DNA of 64,000 nucleotides from Nitrospirota bacterium (GTDB lineage Bacteria > Nitrospirota > Thermodesulfovibrionia > Thermodesulfovibrionales > Magnetobacteriaceae), in contig JADFXG010000001.1 of assembly GCA_015233895.1 (NCBI GenBank), forward strand, positions 62,001-126,000. The letters run 5' to 3'. Positions 4,449 through 63,322 of this stretch are shown piece after piece (within the stretch, counting starts at the first letter, position 1; each line of letters starts with the position of its first letter). A program made the translations under genes and the position numbers. Under the pieces are notes generated by a model. That model did no database searches, was not told where the DNA came from, and was given only the letters and a program-made list of their open reading frames with translations.

Positions 4449-4898
4449 ATGCAATCTTTCATAAGCATAGGTTCAAACATAGGTGACAGGAAGGCTAATT
4501 GCACAAGGGCTGTGCAATTGTTAAACTCAAACGATATAGTGGTTAAAGCAGTGTCAGGCATGTATGAAACCAAACCGTGGGGAGTAACATCGCAGCCGGA
4601 TTTTATAAATATGTGTGTCGAGATTGAAACCACCCTTCAGCCGACTGAACTTCTGGCTGTTCTTAAAGAGATAGAAAAAATCATGGGGCGCAAGGAGTCT
4701 GCCAGATGGGGGCCTCGTGTTATAGACCTTGACATCGTGTTTTATGGGCAGGAGATAATAAACACCCAAAACCTGCAAATCCCACATCCTCACATGCACG
4801 AAAGGGATTTCGTACTAATACCGCTTTCTGAGCTTGCACCACGTATGCTGCACCCGGTATTAAATAAGACAGTGGAGGAATTACTCAGGCAGCTTTAA
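4449..4898 (+). CDS. folK: 2-amino-4-hydroxy-6-hydroxymethyldihydropteridine diphosphokinase
   Basis: A 149-residue HPPK, which transfers pyrophosphate from ATP to 6-hydroxymethyl-7,8-dihydropterin in folate synthesis. Family motifs are present in order: the SIGSNIGD start (residues 5-12), YETKPWG with DFIN, then RWGPRVIDLDIV carrying the Mg-binding DLD, and PHPHMHERDFVL near the C-terminus. The length is typical of single-domain FolK. Its 3' end overlaps the 3' end of convergent hisH by 14 nt. No other folate gene is adjacent. Confidence 0.95.
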   Translation: MQSFISIGSNIGDRKANCTRAVQLLNSNDIVVKAVSGMYETKPWGVTSQPDFINMCVEIETTLQPTELLAVLKEIEKIMGRKESARWGPRVIDLDIVFYGQEIINTQNLQIPHPHMHERDFVLIPLSELAPRMLHPVLNKTVEELLRQL

Positions 4899-57440: not shown

Positions 57441-59033
57441 ATGAAAACCACGTTGATAGCGCCTACGCCGCCGGATGTTGCGGCTTTTGGCGTAAGAACT
57501 CTCTCTGCTTATCTGAAAAAGCACGGTAAAGAGGTTAGAAATATATTCCTCCCCGGTGGAGTTGAAAAATTTAAATATAAAACCGGATTTAAGTATAACT
57601 ACGAACAAAAACTTATGGACCAGGTGATAGAGCTGTGTAAGGGCTCAGACCTCATTGGGATTTCATTTATGAGTAACTACCTTGACAGGGCAACACAACT
57701 GTGTGAGACCTTAAGGGCAGCCCTTAAGGTGCCCGTTGTCGTAGGCGGCATACATCCCACCGTAATGTCTGAGGATTGTCTGAGATTTGCTGACATTGTG
57801 TGTGTCGGTGAGGGTGAGGAAACACTGCTTGAGCTTGTTAATGCTATTGAGGCAGGTAAGGATTACTCAGACATTCAGAATCTGTGCTTAAAGAAAAACG
57901 GTGTAACAGTCAGAAACCCCATGCGGGCACTTGTGCAGGATCTGGACTCAATCCCGTTTTGCGATTTCGGTATGGATGGGCACTTTATCTATGACAATAT
58001 AAAAGGCTCCATAGAGCCGATGTCAAAAGACCTCTTAAAACGCATGTTTCCACTTGAGCCGCACCTTGAGGGAACATTTTATGATTCATACAAAAGAACT
58101 CTTAGCTTTAAAGTTATGACCACACGGGGCTGTCCTCACCACTGCTCGTTCTGTGCGGAAAAAACCCTGTCAGAAATGTACAAGGGGCAGAGGTATTTAA
58201 GAAAACGGGGGGTTAACAACATCATAGAGGAGCTTTTGTGGGTAAAGCGGGAATTTGACTTTGTGGAAAGCATCTTTCTGTTTGACGATACCTTTATGGT
58301 CAGAGGTGAACCTGAGATAATTGAGTTTGCAGCTGCCTACAAAAAACACATCGGGCTACCATTTCACATTCAGGCAAGTCCGGGCACGGTTACTGAAGCC
58401 AAGATGGAGGCACTGATTGATGCCGGCCTTGTTTTCGTTGAGATGGGGATTCAGTCTATGAGTCAACATGGTATGGAGTTATATAAAAGAAGCATCACAG
58501 GGGGCACAATTTTAAAGGCTGCCGATGTGTTTCATAAGTATCAGGGGCGAATATATCCGCCGTGTTACCATATAATTTTAGATAACCCATGGGAGAGCAC
58601 ATCTGATGTTGCTGAAACCCTTGATCTTATCCTTCAGCTTCCAAAGCCATTTTGGTTAAAGCGTGCCTCACTGGTCTGTTTTCCCGGAACCGACCTCTAT
58701 GAAAAAGCTAAGCGTGACGGCATCATTAAAACCGAGGAGGATGAGTGGCGTGAGGTCTATTCAAAGCACCTTCACACTCCGCACGGCTCCTACATAAATT
58801 TCCTGACTTATCTGGCCGGTTTTTCCCATTTTCCACGGTTTATGGTAAAGCTGCTTGCCGCTAAACCGCTTATAAAACTTCTTGATAAGGAGTCTTTGAA
58901 CGGGCTTTACAGTTACTTAAACAGAATGGGAGAGAGGTTAATAGTAATATCTAAAGGAGTTCGATCACTATTTAAAGGTGATTTTCACCGTATATACAGA
59001 TACTTTGTAAGGACGGGGTCTAAGACTTCTTAA
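57441..59033 (+). CDS. B12-binding radical SAM protein
   Basis: A 530-residue enzyme of the BchE-like class. The N-terminal cobalamin-binding domain (about 1-150) has the RTLSAYLKKHG start and VVGGIHPTV (about 100-108). The radical SAM core (about 210-430) carries CPHHCSFC (C-x3-C-x2-C) for the [4Fe-4S] cluster. The C-terminal region is basic and helical. An AAAAGGAG site precedes the start. It is 16 nt upstream of a PCP-reductase-domain gene, so the two may act in one pathway. Such enzymes methylate, cyclise or rearrange lipids, tetrapyrroles or natural products. The substrate here is unknown. Confidence 0.9.
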   Translation: MKTTLIAPTPPDVAAFGVRTLSAYLKKHGKEVRNIFLPGGVEKFKYKTGFKYNYEQKLMDQVIELCKGSDLIGISFMSNYLDRATQLCETLRAALKVPVVVGGIHPTVMSEDCLRFADIVCVGEGEETLLELVNAIEAGKDYSDIQNLCLKKNGVTVRNPMRALVQDLDSIPFCDFGMDGHFIYDNIKGSIEPMSKDLLKRMFPLEPHLEGTFYDSYKRTLSFKVMTTRGCPHHCSFCAEKTLSEMYKGQRYLRKRGVNNIIEELLWVKREFDFVESIFLFDDTFMVRGEPEIIEFAAAYKKHIGLPFHIQASPGTVTEAKMEALIDAGLVFVEMGIQSMSQHGMELYKRSITGGTILKAADVFHKYQGRIYPPCYHIILDNPWESTSDVAETLDLILQLPKPFWLKRASLVCFPGTDLYEKAKRDGIIKTEEDEWREVYSKHLHTPHGSYINFLTYLAGFSHFPRFMVKLLAAKPLIKLLDKESLNGLYSYLNRMGERLIVISKGVRSLFKGDFHRIYRYFVRTGSKTS

Positions 59034-59049
59034 AAAGGAGGACTGTATC

Positions 59050-59442
59050 ATGAAATTTAACTGTCTGAAATGTAATATAGAAATGCCGGTTAAGAGGGAG
59101 CAAAGCACTGAAGCCTATGCCGCTGGCGCAACGTTAACGTTTTCCTGTGCCGGTTGTGGAGCTTCTTTTGCAATGATTGCTAATCCTATGGAGGAGAAGA
59201 TGATAAAAGAGCTTGGTGTGCATGAAGGCAAGCCAAAAGTGCCGGAAACCCCGGTGGAATCTGTAAGCACTGCCACAAAGACATTACAGTGGGAGCCTGA
59301 GGCACTTAAGCGGCTTGAGAAAGTGCCTGTGTTTGTAAGATGGATGGCCAAGTCAACAATCGAAAACCATGCACGGGAAAAGGGATTAAGCACAATCACT
59401 GTGGCTCTGATGGAGGAGGCGAGGCATCTTTATGGAAATTAA
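59050..59442 (+). CDS. Zinc-ribbon/PCP-reductase-domain protein
   Basis: A 130-residue protein. Two CxxC pairs (Cys5/Cys8 and Cys33/Cys36) form an N-terminal zinc ribbon. The C-terminal third (about 82-128; EALKRLEKVPVF-x-R-x-M-A-K, then IENHAREKG and the closing MEEARHLYGN) matches the PCP_red domain seen at the C-terminus of light-independent protochlorophyllide reductase subunit B. There are no photosynthesis genes in the window, so the domain acts in another context. GGAGG lies 7 nt before the ATG. It is probably co-transcribed with the radical SAM gene. Confidence 0.82.
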   Translation: MKFNCLKCNIEMPVKREQSTEAYAAGATLTFSCAGCGASFAMIANPMEEKMIKELGVHEGKPKVPETPVESVSTATKTLQWEPEALKRLEKVPVFVRWMAKSTIENHAREKGLSTITVALMEEARHLYGN

Positions 59443-59982: not shown

Positions 59983-60558
59983 ATGATTTTATCAGACAGA
60001 GACATAAGACAATCATTAGAGAGCGGACGGATAACGGTTGTACCGTACCCTGAGCTTGACAAGCAGCTGGGAGCCTGCACGCTTGATATGCGGCTGGGTA
60101 ATGTCTTTAGCGTGTTTGAACACAGCAGATATCCTGTGCTTGATTTAAGATCGGGAATTAAAATTGATGACATCATGAAATCAATAACAATCCCTGACGG
60201 AGAAAGGTTTATCCTTCAGCCAGGGGAGTTTGCTCTTGCTATGACTATTGAGAGACTTGAGCTGCCGGCAGACCTTGTTGGCCGTATAGACGGCAGAAGC
60301 AGTCTGGGACGCCTCGGACTAATAATTCATGGCACCGCTTCAACGTTTGAACCGGGTTGGAGAGGAAATCCCACCCTGGAGCTCAGTAACATTGGCAGAA
60401 TGCCGATAGCACTGTATCCGGGTATGCGAATATGCTCTTTCACATTTGAAATGCTCTCATCTCCTGCAGAGGTTCCCTATGACAAGAAGGTAAGTGCAAA
60501 GTACATGAATCAGGACGGACCTCAGCCCAGTAAAATAATTGACGATGACGCCACATAG
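59983..60558 (+). CDS. dcd: dCTP deaminase
   Basis: A 191-residue trimeric enzyme of the dUTPase/Dcd fold that deaminates dCTP to dUTP (some members go directly to dUMP). The family segment G-R-S-S-L-G-R-L-G-L is at about 105-114, followed by PGWRGNPTLELSN (about 127-139) with the catalytic Glu. The C-terminus ends in a flexible tail that closes over the substrate. It begins 12 nt after leuD and 13 nt before the HAD gene. In context it would feed dUMP production for the thymidylate synthase-like protein 1.3 kb downstream. Confidence 0.94.
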   Translation: MILSDRDIRQSLESGRITVVPYPELDKQLGACTLDMRLGNVFSVFEHSRYPVLDLRSGIKIDDIMKSITIPDGERFILQPGEFALAMTIERLELPADLVGRIDGRSSLGRLGLIIHGTASTFEPGWRGNPTLELSNIGRMPIALYPGMRICSFTFEMLSSPAEVPYDKKVSAKYMNQDGPQPSKIIDDDAT

Positions 60559-60571
60559 ATAGACGGGCTGC

Positions 60572-61258
60572 ATGAAAAAGTTAAAGGGAGTGTTTTTTGA
60601 TATAGGATCAACTTTGGTAATGGGGCCGGATATATCGCCATGTAAGGATATTGCCAAAATTCTTGGCCACACTGAGATTAACTCTGACATGGTTAAAGAT
60701 ATAATAATGGTCAGAGAGCTAACATCTCCACCCGATATAATCAAATATCTTGTGAGCATTGTAAATGCAGAAGCCATAACGAGGTGCACGCATAAGGTTA
60801 AGGATCTCTGGGATAGCCAGGAAATAGCAGCTATAGAAATAACAGGTGCTTCTGAGACAGTAAAAGAACTGAAACAGATGGGATTACTTATAGGCCTTAT
60901 TTCAGACATTTGGGTACCATACTATAAGTCTTTCAAACTGGCCTGCCCTGAGATTGTGGCCACAGTGGACAGTACCACGCTGAGTTTCAGAGAGGGCGTA
61001 AGAAAACCCAACCCAGTGCTTTATGAAAGGGCTTTGGCATCTCTTGATTTGACCCCTGACGCTGCCGTTATGGTAGGGGATTCGTATTTTAGCGACATCG
61101 AGCCGGCTATGAAGTTGGGCATGAATACTGTGTGGTTTTTGTCACGTCCCGCACATGAGCTGGATCCAATTGTACGGGTATTTAATGGCGAACTTAAAAA
61201 ACCTGATTACACCATAGGAACAATTTCACAGCTACTAATGCTGGATTTATGGAGATAA
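60572..61258 (+). CDS. HAD-superfamily hydrolase
   Basis: A 228-residue Rossmannoid phosphatase. Motif I is DIGST (residues 10-14), so the nucleophile Asp10 is present but the second Asp of DxD is Gly. Motif II is the Ser/Asp in LISDIW, motif III the Lys in RKPNP and motif IV GDSYFSD (about 169-175). A helical cap lies between motifs I and II. The position between dcd and the thymidylate synthase-like fusion suggests a nucleotide phosphatase acting on dUMP, dUTP or a product, which is inference. It is 4 nt from the next gene. Confidence 0.88.
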   Translation: MKKLKGVFFDIGSTLVMGPDISPCKDIAKILGHTEINSDMVKDIIMVRELTSPPDIIKYLVSIVNAEAITRCTHKVKDLWDSQEIAAIEITGASETVKELKQMGLLIGLISDIWVPYYKSFKLACPEIVATVDSTTLSFREGVRKPNPVLYERALASLDLTPDAAVMVGDSYFSDIEPAMKLGMNTVWFLSRPAHELDPIVRVFNGELKKPDYTIGTISQLLMLDLWR

Positions 61259-61262
61259 ATAT

Positions 61263-61874
61263 ATGAAAATTTTAAAGATAAAACATTTCTCTACCGGACA
61301 GTTGATTGAAAATCTTAAAAACATTACGATGCTTCATGCACCGGAAATCCGCCCTTATAAAGATGTGTTTATTTCATTAGAGCATATTTCTGTCAACTAC
61401 CTGCATCCGGCACAGTATTATGTCTTACATAAGGAATTAGACAAAGTGCGCAATCTGAGGTGGGAGCTAAGAAATCACAATATAGACATTTTTAATTTAA
61501 ACGGCTATGTGAAAATATGGCTTGAGGATGAGGAGGAGCCAATTGATCTGCTCCCTCCGGTAGTTGAGGAATCCATTGAAAAAGACGGACGAGTCGTAAA
61601 CATCATAAACGATGGAATGCACAGGGTGTTTTTGTCGCGTCTTGAATGGGTCAATCCTCAGGTAATTTTTGTGCGCGGTATTCCCAAAGATTTACCCTAT
61701 TACGCATACCCAATTCCAGAGGGATGGGATAAGGTTAAAATTGTTGAGGATTTACCGGAGGGGTTTCTTAAGAAATGGCACAGAATTGAAAAGTATAAGA
61801 CACTTTACAGAAACTTCAACTCTGCATTTGAAAATGTTGGAGGCCCCAGAGGGCATAACTCCAAAAAGAGTTAA
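61263..61874 (+). CDS. DGxHR-motif (ParB/DndB-like) protein
   Basis: A 203-residue soluble protein. The centre has IINDGMHRVFLSR, with DGMHR at 117-121. This DGxHR motif marks the ParB/sulfiredoxin-like fold, also found in DndB of DNA phosphorothioation. The C-terminal part (PEGWDKVKIVEDLPEGF and KWHRIEKYKTLYRNFNSAF) looks conserved but is not recognised. It overlaps the next gene by one base (TAATG), so it is translationally coupled to the thymidylate synthase-like fusion. Its role could be phosphotransfer, nucleotide binding or DNA binding. No specific function is claimed. Confidence 0.75.
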   Translation: MKILKIKHFSTGQLIENLKNITMLHAPEIRPYKDVFISLEHISVNYLHPAQYYVLHKELDKVRNLRWELRNHNIDIFNLNGYVKIWLEDEEEPIDLLPPVVEESIEKDGRVVNIINDGMHRVFLSRLEWVNPQVIFVRGIPKDLPYYAYPIPEGWDKVKIVEDLPEGFLKKWHRIEKYKTLYRNFNSAFENVGGPRGHNSKKS

Positions 61875-63322
61875 TGGAATTTGTACCTGTTTATTATAAA
61901 GACTCCCTAACCATTATAAATCCAAATGGTTATGTTGGAGTTGTCACCCTATGGTCAAAGCCGCAAGCAGTAATAGACAAATTCAAAGAGGCTGGTGTGG
62001 ATTTAGACGCATCCAGCTCACAAGTCGCCGCTTTTGGCACACTCTATGGCAATGGACTAAAGCACCTTCTTGCCAATTTGCTCTATAACCCTCAGATAAC
62101 ACATATCTTAATTTGCGGACGGGATACCGGAGGGTCGTTGCAGCAACTGTTGAGCTTTTTTAATAAAGGTGTGGAAAAAGAAATTCAACTTGGCATTACA
62201 AGTAACAGGATTATCGGCACATCCAGATTTTTGCCTGAGGCGTTAACTCCTGAGTTATTTAAGAATCCTCCCAATTTAACCTATATAGGAAAGGAGAGCG
62301 ACGCTGAATTTAAAATAAAACTGATGGCTTTCTTTGATAATCTTCCGTCAGGATTAAATATGGCAGAGGCTGAGAGAGTAGAAATAGATTTACCAGAAAT
62401 TACTCCCTCGTATTTTCCTTCTAATCAGCGCAGTCATATAATTATAAAAAACACTCCGCTTGAAGCGTGGAAAGAGTTGATCTTTTGTCTGGATCGTTTT
62501 GGGCGCATGACAGAGCTTAAGCCTGACAAGCGCCGCAAAGAGCTGCAAAACGTAAAGGTAATAGTAGAAAATCCGATAGAGGAGAACAACGAGCGTTTAA
62601 AGCCGTTTGGATTTTCTATCGAAGAGCTCCATGACTATCAGAGCACAGTCATGAGCGATATTGTAGAGGGGGATTATGGCTATGGCAACAGAATCAGGGA
62701 TTATTTTGATGTGGATGCTCTGATTGTCTGTATAGAAAAACTAAAGAGAAACCGGCAGGACAGGCGTTCTTTTATAGTGCTATGGGATTCAAGGACAGAC
62801 CTGACCGACACATGGCGCTCCTCTCCTTGTTTAGCTACAATTTTTCTCCGGGTGTTTGATGATAAACTGACACTTTCGGCAACTTTCAGAGTCCATAACG
62901 CATTGGATGCGTGGCTCAAAAATTTCTATGCTCTTATGGCTATTCAAAAGCATGTCGCACAACAGACAGGGATACAAGCAGGAGCTATAACTATAATCAG
63001 CCACTCCATAAGCATAAATCCCGATGAGGGGTATGAAAAGCTCCAGATGATTGTCCGTGAGCACAGCGGTAATTTTAAGTTTGAGGCCGACCCAAACGGG
63101 CAGTTCAGATTTAAAATTGAGGATGGGCAAATTGTTGCAGAGCATATCTATAATGGAGAGAAACTCACTGAATACAGGAGTAAAAAAGCCGAGCGGATAC
63201 AGTATGAGATAAAACGCGACAGGGCAATCTCAGACATAGGCCACGCTATTTTTGTAGGCAGACAACTTGCTAAGGCTGAGCGGTGCTTAAAAACCGGTGA
63301 GGCATTTACTGAAGAATTGTAA
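61874..63322 (+). CDS. MtrA-like domain fused to thymidylate synthase-like domain
   Basis: A 482-residue fusion. Residues 1-170 resemble the cytoplasmic domain of methyltransferase MtrA (DUF4346-like): VGVVTLWSK, GNGLKHLLANLLYNP, THILICGRDTGG and NRIIGTSRFLPE. Residues 175-480 resemble thymidylate synthase: YGYGNRIR (268-275), DRR (296-298), catalytic Cys319 in SSPCLATI, Arg339, Asn350 and His377. Compared with ThyA, the residue after the Cys is Leu instead of His, the Asp169 position is Asn and the Tyr209 position is Ile. It is the last gene of the dcd-HAD-DGxHR run. It may make dTMP with a non-folate methyl carrier or modify another pyrimidine; both are inference. Confidence 0.8.
   Translation: MEFVPVYYKDSLTIINPNGYVGVVTLWSKPQAVIDKFKEAGVDLDASSSQVAAFGTLYGNGLKHLLANLLYNPQITHILICGRDTGGSLQQLLSFFNKGVEKEIQLGITSNRIIGTSRFLPEALTPELFKNPPNLTYIGKESDAEFKIKLMAFFDNLPSGLNMAEAERVEIDLPEITPSYFPSNQRSHIIIKNTPLEAWKELIFCLDRFGRMTELKPDKRRKELQNVKVIVENPIEENNERLKPFGFSIEELHDYQSTVMSDIVEGDYGYGNRIRDYFDVDALIVCIEKLKRNRQDRRSFIVLWDSRTDLTDTWRSSPCLATIFLRVFDDKLTLSATFRVHNALDAWLKNFYALMAIQKHVAQQTGIQAGAITIISHSISINPDEGYEKLQMIVREHSGNFKFEADPNGQFRFKIEDGQIVAEHIYNGEKLTEYRSKKAERIQYEIKRDRAISDIGHAIFVGRQLAKAERCLKTGEAFTEEL

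Follow-up and report, generated by a model that had tools for sequence, protein, structure and literature searches.

A conserved, probable three-domain thymidylate synthase variant and its co-occurring ParB-CE partner in Nitrospirota and other bacteria

A protein of 482 amino acids encoded in the genome of a Nitrospirota bacterium, in which an MtrA-like domain, a thymidylate synthase (TS) domain and a PterinBD-DUF4346 domain are fused, is likely to serve the cell as its de novo thymidylate synthase and to work together with a ParB-CE protein encoded immediately upstream. The gene lies at 61874..63322 (+ strand) of the stretch of DNA that we analyzed, which is 64,000 nucleotides long and is called the window below. 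To our knowledge, ThyA and ThyX are the only thymidylate synthase families in general recognition. The fusion and its co-occurring partner apparently represent a conserved, undescribed TS variant that is neither an ordinary TS nor a corrinoid enzyme. A literature search that covered DUF4346, fusions of MtrA to TS, and ParB in connection with TS, with most subscription journals and preprints outside its coverage, found no description of them.

Domain composition of the fusion protein

The open reading frame proved to be real, with the boundaries given in an earlier note on this DNA. According to the ORF call and domain searches, the protein consists of three parts. An MtrA-like Rossmann domain occupies residues 1 to about 160 (61874..62353, + strand), as delimited by hhalign comparison with MtrA and by column counts; the TS domain extends from about residue 185 to about residue 400 (62426..63073, + strand), as placed by structure match and alignments; and residues 406-479 at the C-terminus (63089..63310, + strand) form a PterinBD-DUF4346 domain (PF14251; E-value 1.1e-15, 58.6 bits against a cut-off of 29.6), which Pfam finds in 42/42 fusion relatives. 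The earlier note had assigned the whole of the C-terminal two thirds to TS, which holds for residues ~185-400 and fails for residues 406-479, where DUF4346 had been overlooked. DUF4346 is a putative pterin binder, by its family name. The AlphaFold2 model of the fusion, built from 42 relatives, has a mean pLDDT of 86 and a pTM of 0.69; because of the latter value, the placement of the domains relative to one another is uncertain.

The fusion matches the Pfam family PF00303 with an E-value of 7e-8 (32.3 bits against a cut-off of 24.3), and PF00303 is recovered at E<0.01 in 41 of the 42 members of the fusion family. The nearest NCBIfam family is TIGR03283, the methanogen-type TS (E-value 1.5e-32), at a score of 112.7 bits, which is under the equivalog cut-off of 174.55. 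The Pfam scan gave no match of the fusion to PF02511 (ThyX), a family that fills the same metabolic slot with an unrelated fold. A structure prediction with comparison to TS, which the earlier note had proposed, recovered the TS fold: compared with solved structures of TSs and their relatives, the TS part of the model reaches Z-scores of about 19-24 over about 200 residues. Among PDB entries, a phage dCMP hydroxylase (9iqu, Z 23.6) has the best fold match, and the CMP hydroxymethylase MilA is also among the top structural matches; despite this rank, neither is close to the fusion in sequence. A closed genome from the genus of the source organism encodes, in addition to the fusion, a short TS-like protein of 214 amino acids (L013, 1423-2064, - strand), whose gene adjoins a DNA polymerase III alpha-like gene.

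The MtrA-like domain

The similarity of the N-terminal domain to MtrA (PF04208), the corrinoid subunit of the H4MPT:CoM methyltransferase, is below the Pfam cut-off in the window protein (E-value 0.003), and PF04208 is found at E<0.01 in 4 of the 42 fusion members. When a profile of 28 fusion N-terminal domains was compared with five real MtrA sequences using hhalign, a collinear match of 119 columns was obtained with a probability of 96.8 % and an E-value of 3e-10; the same profile run against the unrelated ParB-CE family as a control gave a probability of 0.7 %. On the strength of these two values we regard the homology, which covers about 120 residues, as real. It rests on the profile comparison, the search with the whole structural model having returned TS matches. 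The N-terminal third is thus MtrA-like, as the earlier note had described it, and both homologies in its picture of an MtrA-like domain fused to a divergent synthase hold.

In MtrA, the cobalt linkage is formed by His84, the cobalt ligand, and Glu54, which supports this ligand (PMC4915002). The position of His84 is occupied by Ser88 in the window protein and by Ser (41/42) or Thr (1/42) among its relatives, while Glu54 falls within a two-residue deletion of the fusion in the hhalign alignment; the fusion also differs from MtrA in having no membrane helix. These observations bear on the view that the fusion is a corrinoid-dependent methylase, in which a methyl-corrinoid on the MtrA-like domain supplies the methyl group. 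The homology to MtrA is true, and a DUF4346-containing MtrA protein with an intact His is encoded in a sister family, both of which would suit such an enzyme. However, because the cobalt-ligand His is replaced in 42/42 members, a methyl-corrinoid carrier, as the earlier note had conceived the MtrA part, is unlikely, and the loss of His84 and Glu54 led us to reject a corrinoid methyl donor. The Cys-enamine chemistry of TS needs a methylene group and a hydride and does not accommodate a methyl cation equivalent. We therefore give the corrinoid explanation next to no credence; the MtrA-like domain probably serves structure or pterin binding, rather than methyl-corrinoid transfer.

The MtrA protein of the sister-family bacterium (L012, 997-2169, - strand) is 390 amino acids long and consists of a Cys-rich N-terminus, an MtrA domain with the His intact, and DUF4346; it is a possible candidate for a corrinoid/pterin protein. 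Such NF002128-like MtrA + DUF4346 proteins have the same order as the fusion, an MtrA-type domain followed by DUF4346, and differ from it in having no TS domain, an intact His and the extra Cys-rich N-terminus. Judged by domain order, the fusion looks like one of these proteins with TS inserted between both domains.

Active-site residues of the TS domain

We aligned the 42 fusions with E. coli ThyA, the TS of phage M6 and 16 stand-alone TSs from the order to which the source genome belongs. The E. coli ThyA reference sequence agrees end to end with PDB entry 1aob, and MAFFT and hhalign, the latter run against two different TSs, give a register that is ungapped from the catalytic Cys through the Asn to the conserved Ser. 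Established roles of Cys146, Arg21/126/166, His207 and Tyr209 in ordinary TS have been tabulated (PMC6005164), and a list of TS catalytic residues is likewise available (PMC4304848).

Cys146 and the uracil-reading Asn177 correspond to C319 and N350 and are present in 42/42 fusions, as are the phosphate-binding Arg21, Arg126' and Arg166 (R221, R297 and R339) and the equivalent of Tyr94 (Tyr270). The catalytic residues that are kept are therefore invariant across a family whose members are down to 38 % identical, and the retention of Cys319, Arg339 and Asn350, proposed previously, is borne out by the alignments in all 42 members. Three other residues are replaced. Asp169, a pterin contact, is Asn342 in the window protein and Asn in 42/42 fusions, in agreement with the earlier reading. 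His207 corresponds to Ser380, with Ser, Gly or Thr across the family, and Tyr209 corresponds to Asn382, with Asp or Asn across the family and Arg once. His377, which had been taken for a retained His207, and the Ile that had been taken for the replacement of Tyr209 were both misaligned by three residues. His377 belongs to a Ser-His-Ser motif three positions before the His207 equivalent and is a conserved residue (41/42) new to this family. In the same-order stand-alone TSs, in contrast, Asp169 is found in 16/16, His207 in 16/16 and Tyr209 in 15/16. As read from these alignments, the pterin-holding contact and both deoxyribose 3'-OH contacts of TS are lost in the fusion. The change of His147, directly after the catalytic Cys, to Leu is present as had been claimed, but it says nothing special because Leu stands there in 16/16 stand-alone TSs of the same order. 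The Trp80 loop is missing in the fusion and in ordinary stand-alone TSs alike.

It is conceivable that the fusion carries out ordinary ThyA chemistry, converting dUMP and methylene-tetrahydrofolate to dTMP, with the extra domains as scaffolding and ParB-CE as a regulator or a co-inherited house-cleaning enzyme. The retained Cys, phosphate Arg residues and Asn, the archaeal-type TS family TIGR03283 as the nearest family, and the Leu after Cys and Trp80 loop loss in common with stand-alone TSs are all consistent with this. With archaeal/methanogen-type ThyA, the fusion shares the TS fold, the Cys, the phosphate Arg, Asn177, the Leu after Cys and the short form lacking the Trp80 loop; it differs from this type in the replacement of Asp169/His207/Tyr209, in its two extra domains and in its partner protein. 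Since these three residues are replaced in essentially all members, and since ParB-CE, even where it is unlinked, accompanies the fusion rather than other TSs, we consider ordinary chemistry unlikely.

The replacement of Asp169, His207 and Tyr209, which ordinary TSs keep (Tyr209 save one), also counts against reading the fusion as a dTMP synthase. It could instead be a base-modifying or other nucleotide enzyme, with UMP, dUDP or dUTP among its conceivable substrates, in cells that gain their dTMP through salvage; the loss of both 3'-OH contacts and the phage dCMP hydroxylase as the closest PDB fold point in this direction. However, the dCMP/CMP hydroxymethylase signature, an Asp at the Asn177 position, is absent, and Asn350 in its place (42/42) argues for uracil over cytosine. 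The fusion is moreover chromosomal, conserved across phyla and complementary to ThyX and stand-alone TS, and DNA-modification genes were not found alongside it; DNA hypermodification was rejected because the flanks hold no supporting genes. An enzyme that does not make dTMP thus appears improbable to us.

Distribution of the fusion and other thymidylate synthases

The earlier note had proposed searching the genome for thyA and thyX. In the source genome, which is 100 % complete, we found neither ThyX nor any TS other than the fusion. Among 60 related genomes, the fusion is present in 10, a weak eleventh match being an MtrA protein, and a recognizable TS (ThyX, stand-alone TS or fusion) is present in 58; the two relatives with none recognizable (G010 and G017) are incomplete assemblies (92 % and 75 %). 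Seven of the 10 fusion genomes of the family are without ThyX and three carry both, and the exclusion between fusion and ThyX among relatives has a Fisher p of 0.07, which is weak alone.

We also examined 32 fusion genomes of other lineages (Desulfacinum, Desulfobacca, Syntrophobacterales, one Armatimonadota and one Planctomycetota). ThyX was found in 0/32, and in 29/32 PF00303 matched only at the fusion; of the remaining three, two have a further short PF00303 match and in one the fusion itself is below threshold. The fusion therefore occurs in Nitrospirota and Desulfobacterota, cultured Desulfacinum species included, and in one genome each of Armatimonadota and Planctomycetota. These counts cover TS families, not thymidine salvage, and are no proof of dTMP synthesis. 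The suggestion of a product other than dTMP, made in the earlier note, nonetheless finds no backing in the genomic evidence, the fusion being the sole TS in the source genome and in most of the others. The accompanying suggestion of a different one-carbon donor fared better in part: Asn in place of Asp169 in 42/42 hints at unusual one-carbon chemistry, whereas the MtrA methyl carrier is unsupported.

Canonical DHFR (PF00186) was found in 0/60 same-order relatives, many of which rely on a ThyA-type TS, and is absent from 29/32 fusion genomes of other lineages. We discarded this absence as a sign of unusual chemistry, because DHFR is equally absent in relatives with ordinary TS or ThyX. The presence of folK (HPPK) at 4449-4898 of the window favors folate over methanopterin, without proving it.

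The ParB-CE protein and genomic neighborhood

The gene preceding the fusion encodes a ParB-CE protein of 203 amino acids (61263..61874, + strand; PF24392, Pfam E-value 1.8e-77), and its stop codon overlaps the fusion start by 1 nt (TAATG). ParB-CE is present in 10/10 fusion-bearing relatives and in 0/50 others (Fisher p 1.3e-11). It is also present in 30/32 fusion genomes of other lineages (the completeness of the two negative genomes is not given), and in 26 of these 30 it is distant from the fusion or located on a different contig. The two proteins thus occur together in 40 of the 42 fusion genomes searched, often unlinked, while ParB-CE was absent from 14 control genomes and none was found in GenBank phages. 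In a mirror-tree comparison, ParB-CE and fusion distances are correlated with an r of 0.80 (reached in 0/2000 permutations), to which shared species history contributes. The best reading of this co-occurrence is that ParB-CE is a functional partner of the fusion. Counting against a two-part thymidylate synthase are the three genomes with fusion and ThyX, the 2/32 genomes without ParB-CE, and two virus contigs on which ParB-CE has no fusion in the sequence read nearby.

The structural model of ParB-CE (pLDDT 92) resembles sulfiredoxin, free serine kinase, SbnI and ParB, with Z-scores of only 6-7, and nearly all of its listed structure matches belong to the ParB/sulfiredoxin/free-serine-kinase superfamily at that same level. 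This is the sole fold group found for ParB-CE, and a distant one, with no sequence match; the invariant residues of ParB-CE include the motif Asp117-Gly-Met-His-Arg121 (DGMHR).

Such a fold would be in keeping with a two-step reaction, in which the TS domain, like phage dUMP hydroxymethylases, forms 5-hydroxymethyl-dUMP with release of tetrahydrofolate in place of dihydrofolate, and ParB-CE phosphorylates the hydroxymethyl group for elimination and reduction to the methyl group of dTMP. The best phage matches of the fusion belong to the TSs of the group of Pseudomonas phage M6, which are known as dUMP hydroxymethylases, and the absence of DHFR from 60/60 relatives and 29/32 other genomes is compatible with this scheme. 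The M6 type TS is about 32 % identical to the fusion over 110 TS-core residues and keeps the Cys and Asn; however, it retains Asp169, His207 and Tyr209, which the fusion does not, and it lacks the extra domains. Relatives with an ordinary TS lack DHFR to the same extent, so that its absence says little, no reductase was identified, and the ParB-CE fold match reaches a Z of only 6-7. We would accordingly be surprised if this two-step scheme were correct.

Several other genes lie upstream in the window. A HAD-family hydrolase (60572..61258, + strand), identified by domain search and neighborhood survey, is a recurrent but looser neighbor of the fusion than ParB-CE. A dCTP deaminase (59983..60558, + strand; TIGR02274 E-value 1.2e-58, exceeding the cut-off) was rejected as a conserved partner because it adjoins the fusion in some Nitrospirota only. 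Further upstream are a B12-binding radical SAM protein (57441-59033 of the window), for which NCBIfam gave no equivalog above cut-off, and, directly after it, a small PCP_red-domain protein (59050-59442 of the window). Recurrent neighbors in Desulfobacterota other than ParB-CE and the HAD hydrolase look like lineage synteny and were set aside.

The fusion was also detected on two uncultivated virus contigs. One of them (14,960 bp), viral by the database's assignment, has ParB-CE just upstream of the fusion, and the other carries a phosphoribosyltransferase gene resembling pyrE. On two further virus contigs ParB-CE is present, and the surrounding 20 kb that were read hold no fusion; a dCMP deaminase-like protein is encoded on one of the two as well. 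Together, the virus contigs (L132, L131, L133 and L123) suggest viral supplementation of pyrimidine nucleotide synthesis.

Proposed function

From the domains, residue conservation, sole-TS status and co-occurrence observed here we infer a substrate, a product, a one-carbon donor and roles for the accessory domains. If the fusion is, as we think likely, a de novo thymidylate synthase, a deoxyuridine nucleotide, most likely dUMP, would bind the TS domain, and the dCTP deaminase encoded in this operon could provide some of it. Cys319 would attack C6 as in ThyA, with Asn350 reading the uracil and Arg221, Arg297' and Arg339 holding the phosphate. The one-carbon unit would come from a methylene-tetrahydropterin, most likely methylene-tetrahydrofolate, and the C-terminal pterin-binding domain, instead of the usual Asp169, may hold the pterin, at least in part. 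The MtrA-like domain, having lost its cobalt ligand, would probably be structural or pterin-binding. ParB-CE may be a nucleotide-using helper enzyme or a subunit needed for the reaction, which would supply a step or stabilize the enzyme. More speculatively, and with a good deal less confidence, the pair might constitute a third thymidylate route, in which a TS-fold enzyme with a re-plumbed cofactor site is fed its one-carbon unit via the attached pterin domain and depends for completion of the methyl group on the nucleotide-using partner of ParB/sulfiredoxin fold, which would, for instance, phosphorylate a hydroxymethyl intermediate.

A three-domain TS with a co-occurring partner would thus fill the slot of ThyA or ThyX in dozens of anaerobic bacteria, and viruses carry the fusion too. 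With near-universal TS residues replaced across the whole family, the fusion offers a natural enzyme in which the role of the pterin-contacting Asp and that of the sugar contacts can be tested. For PF24392 and DUF4346, the association described here would provide a first functional lead.
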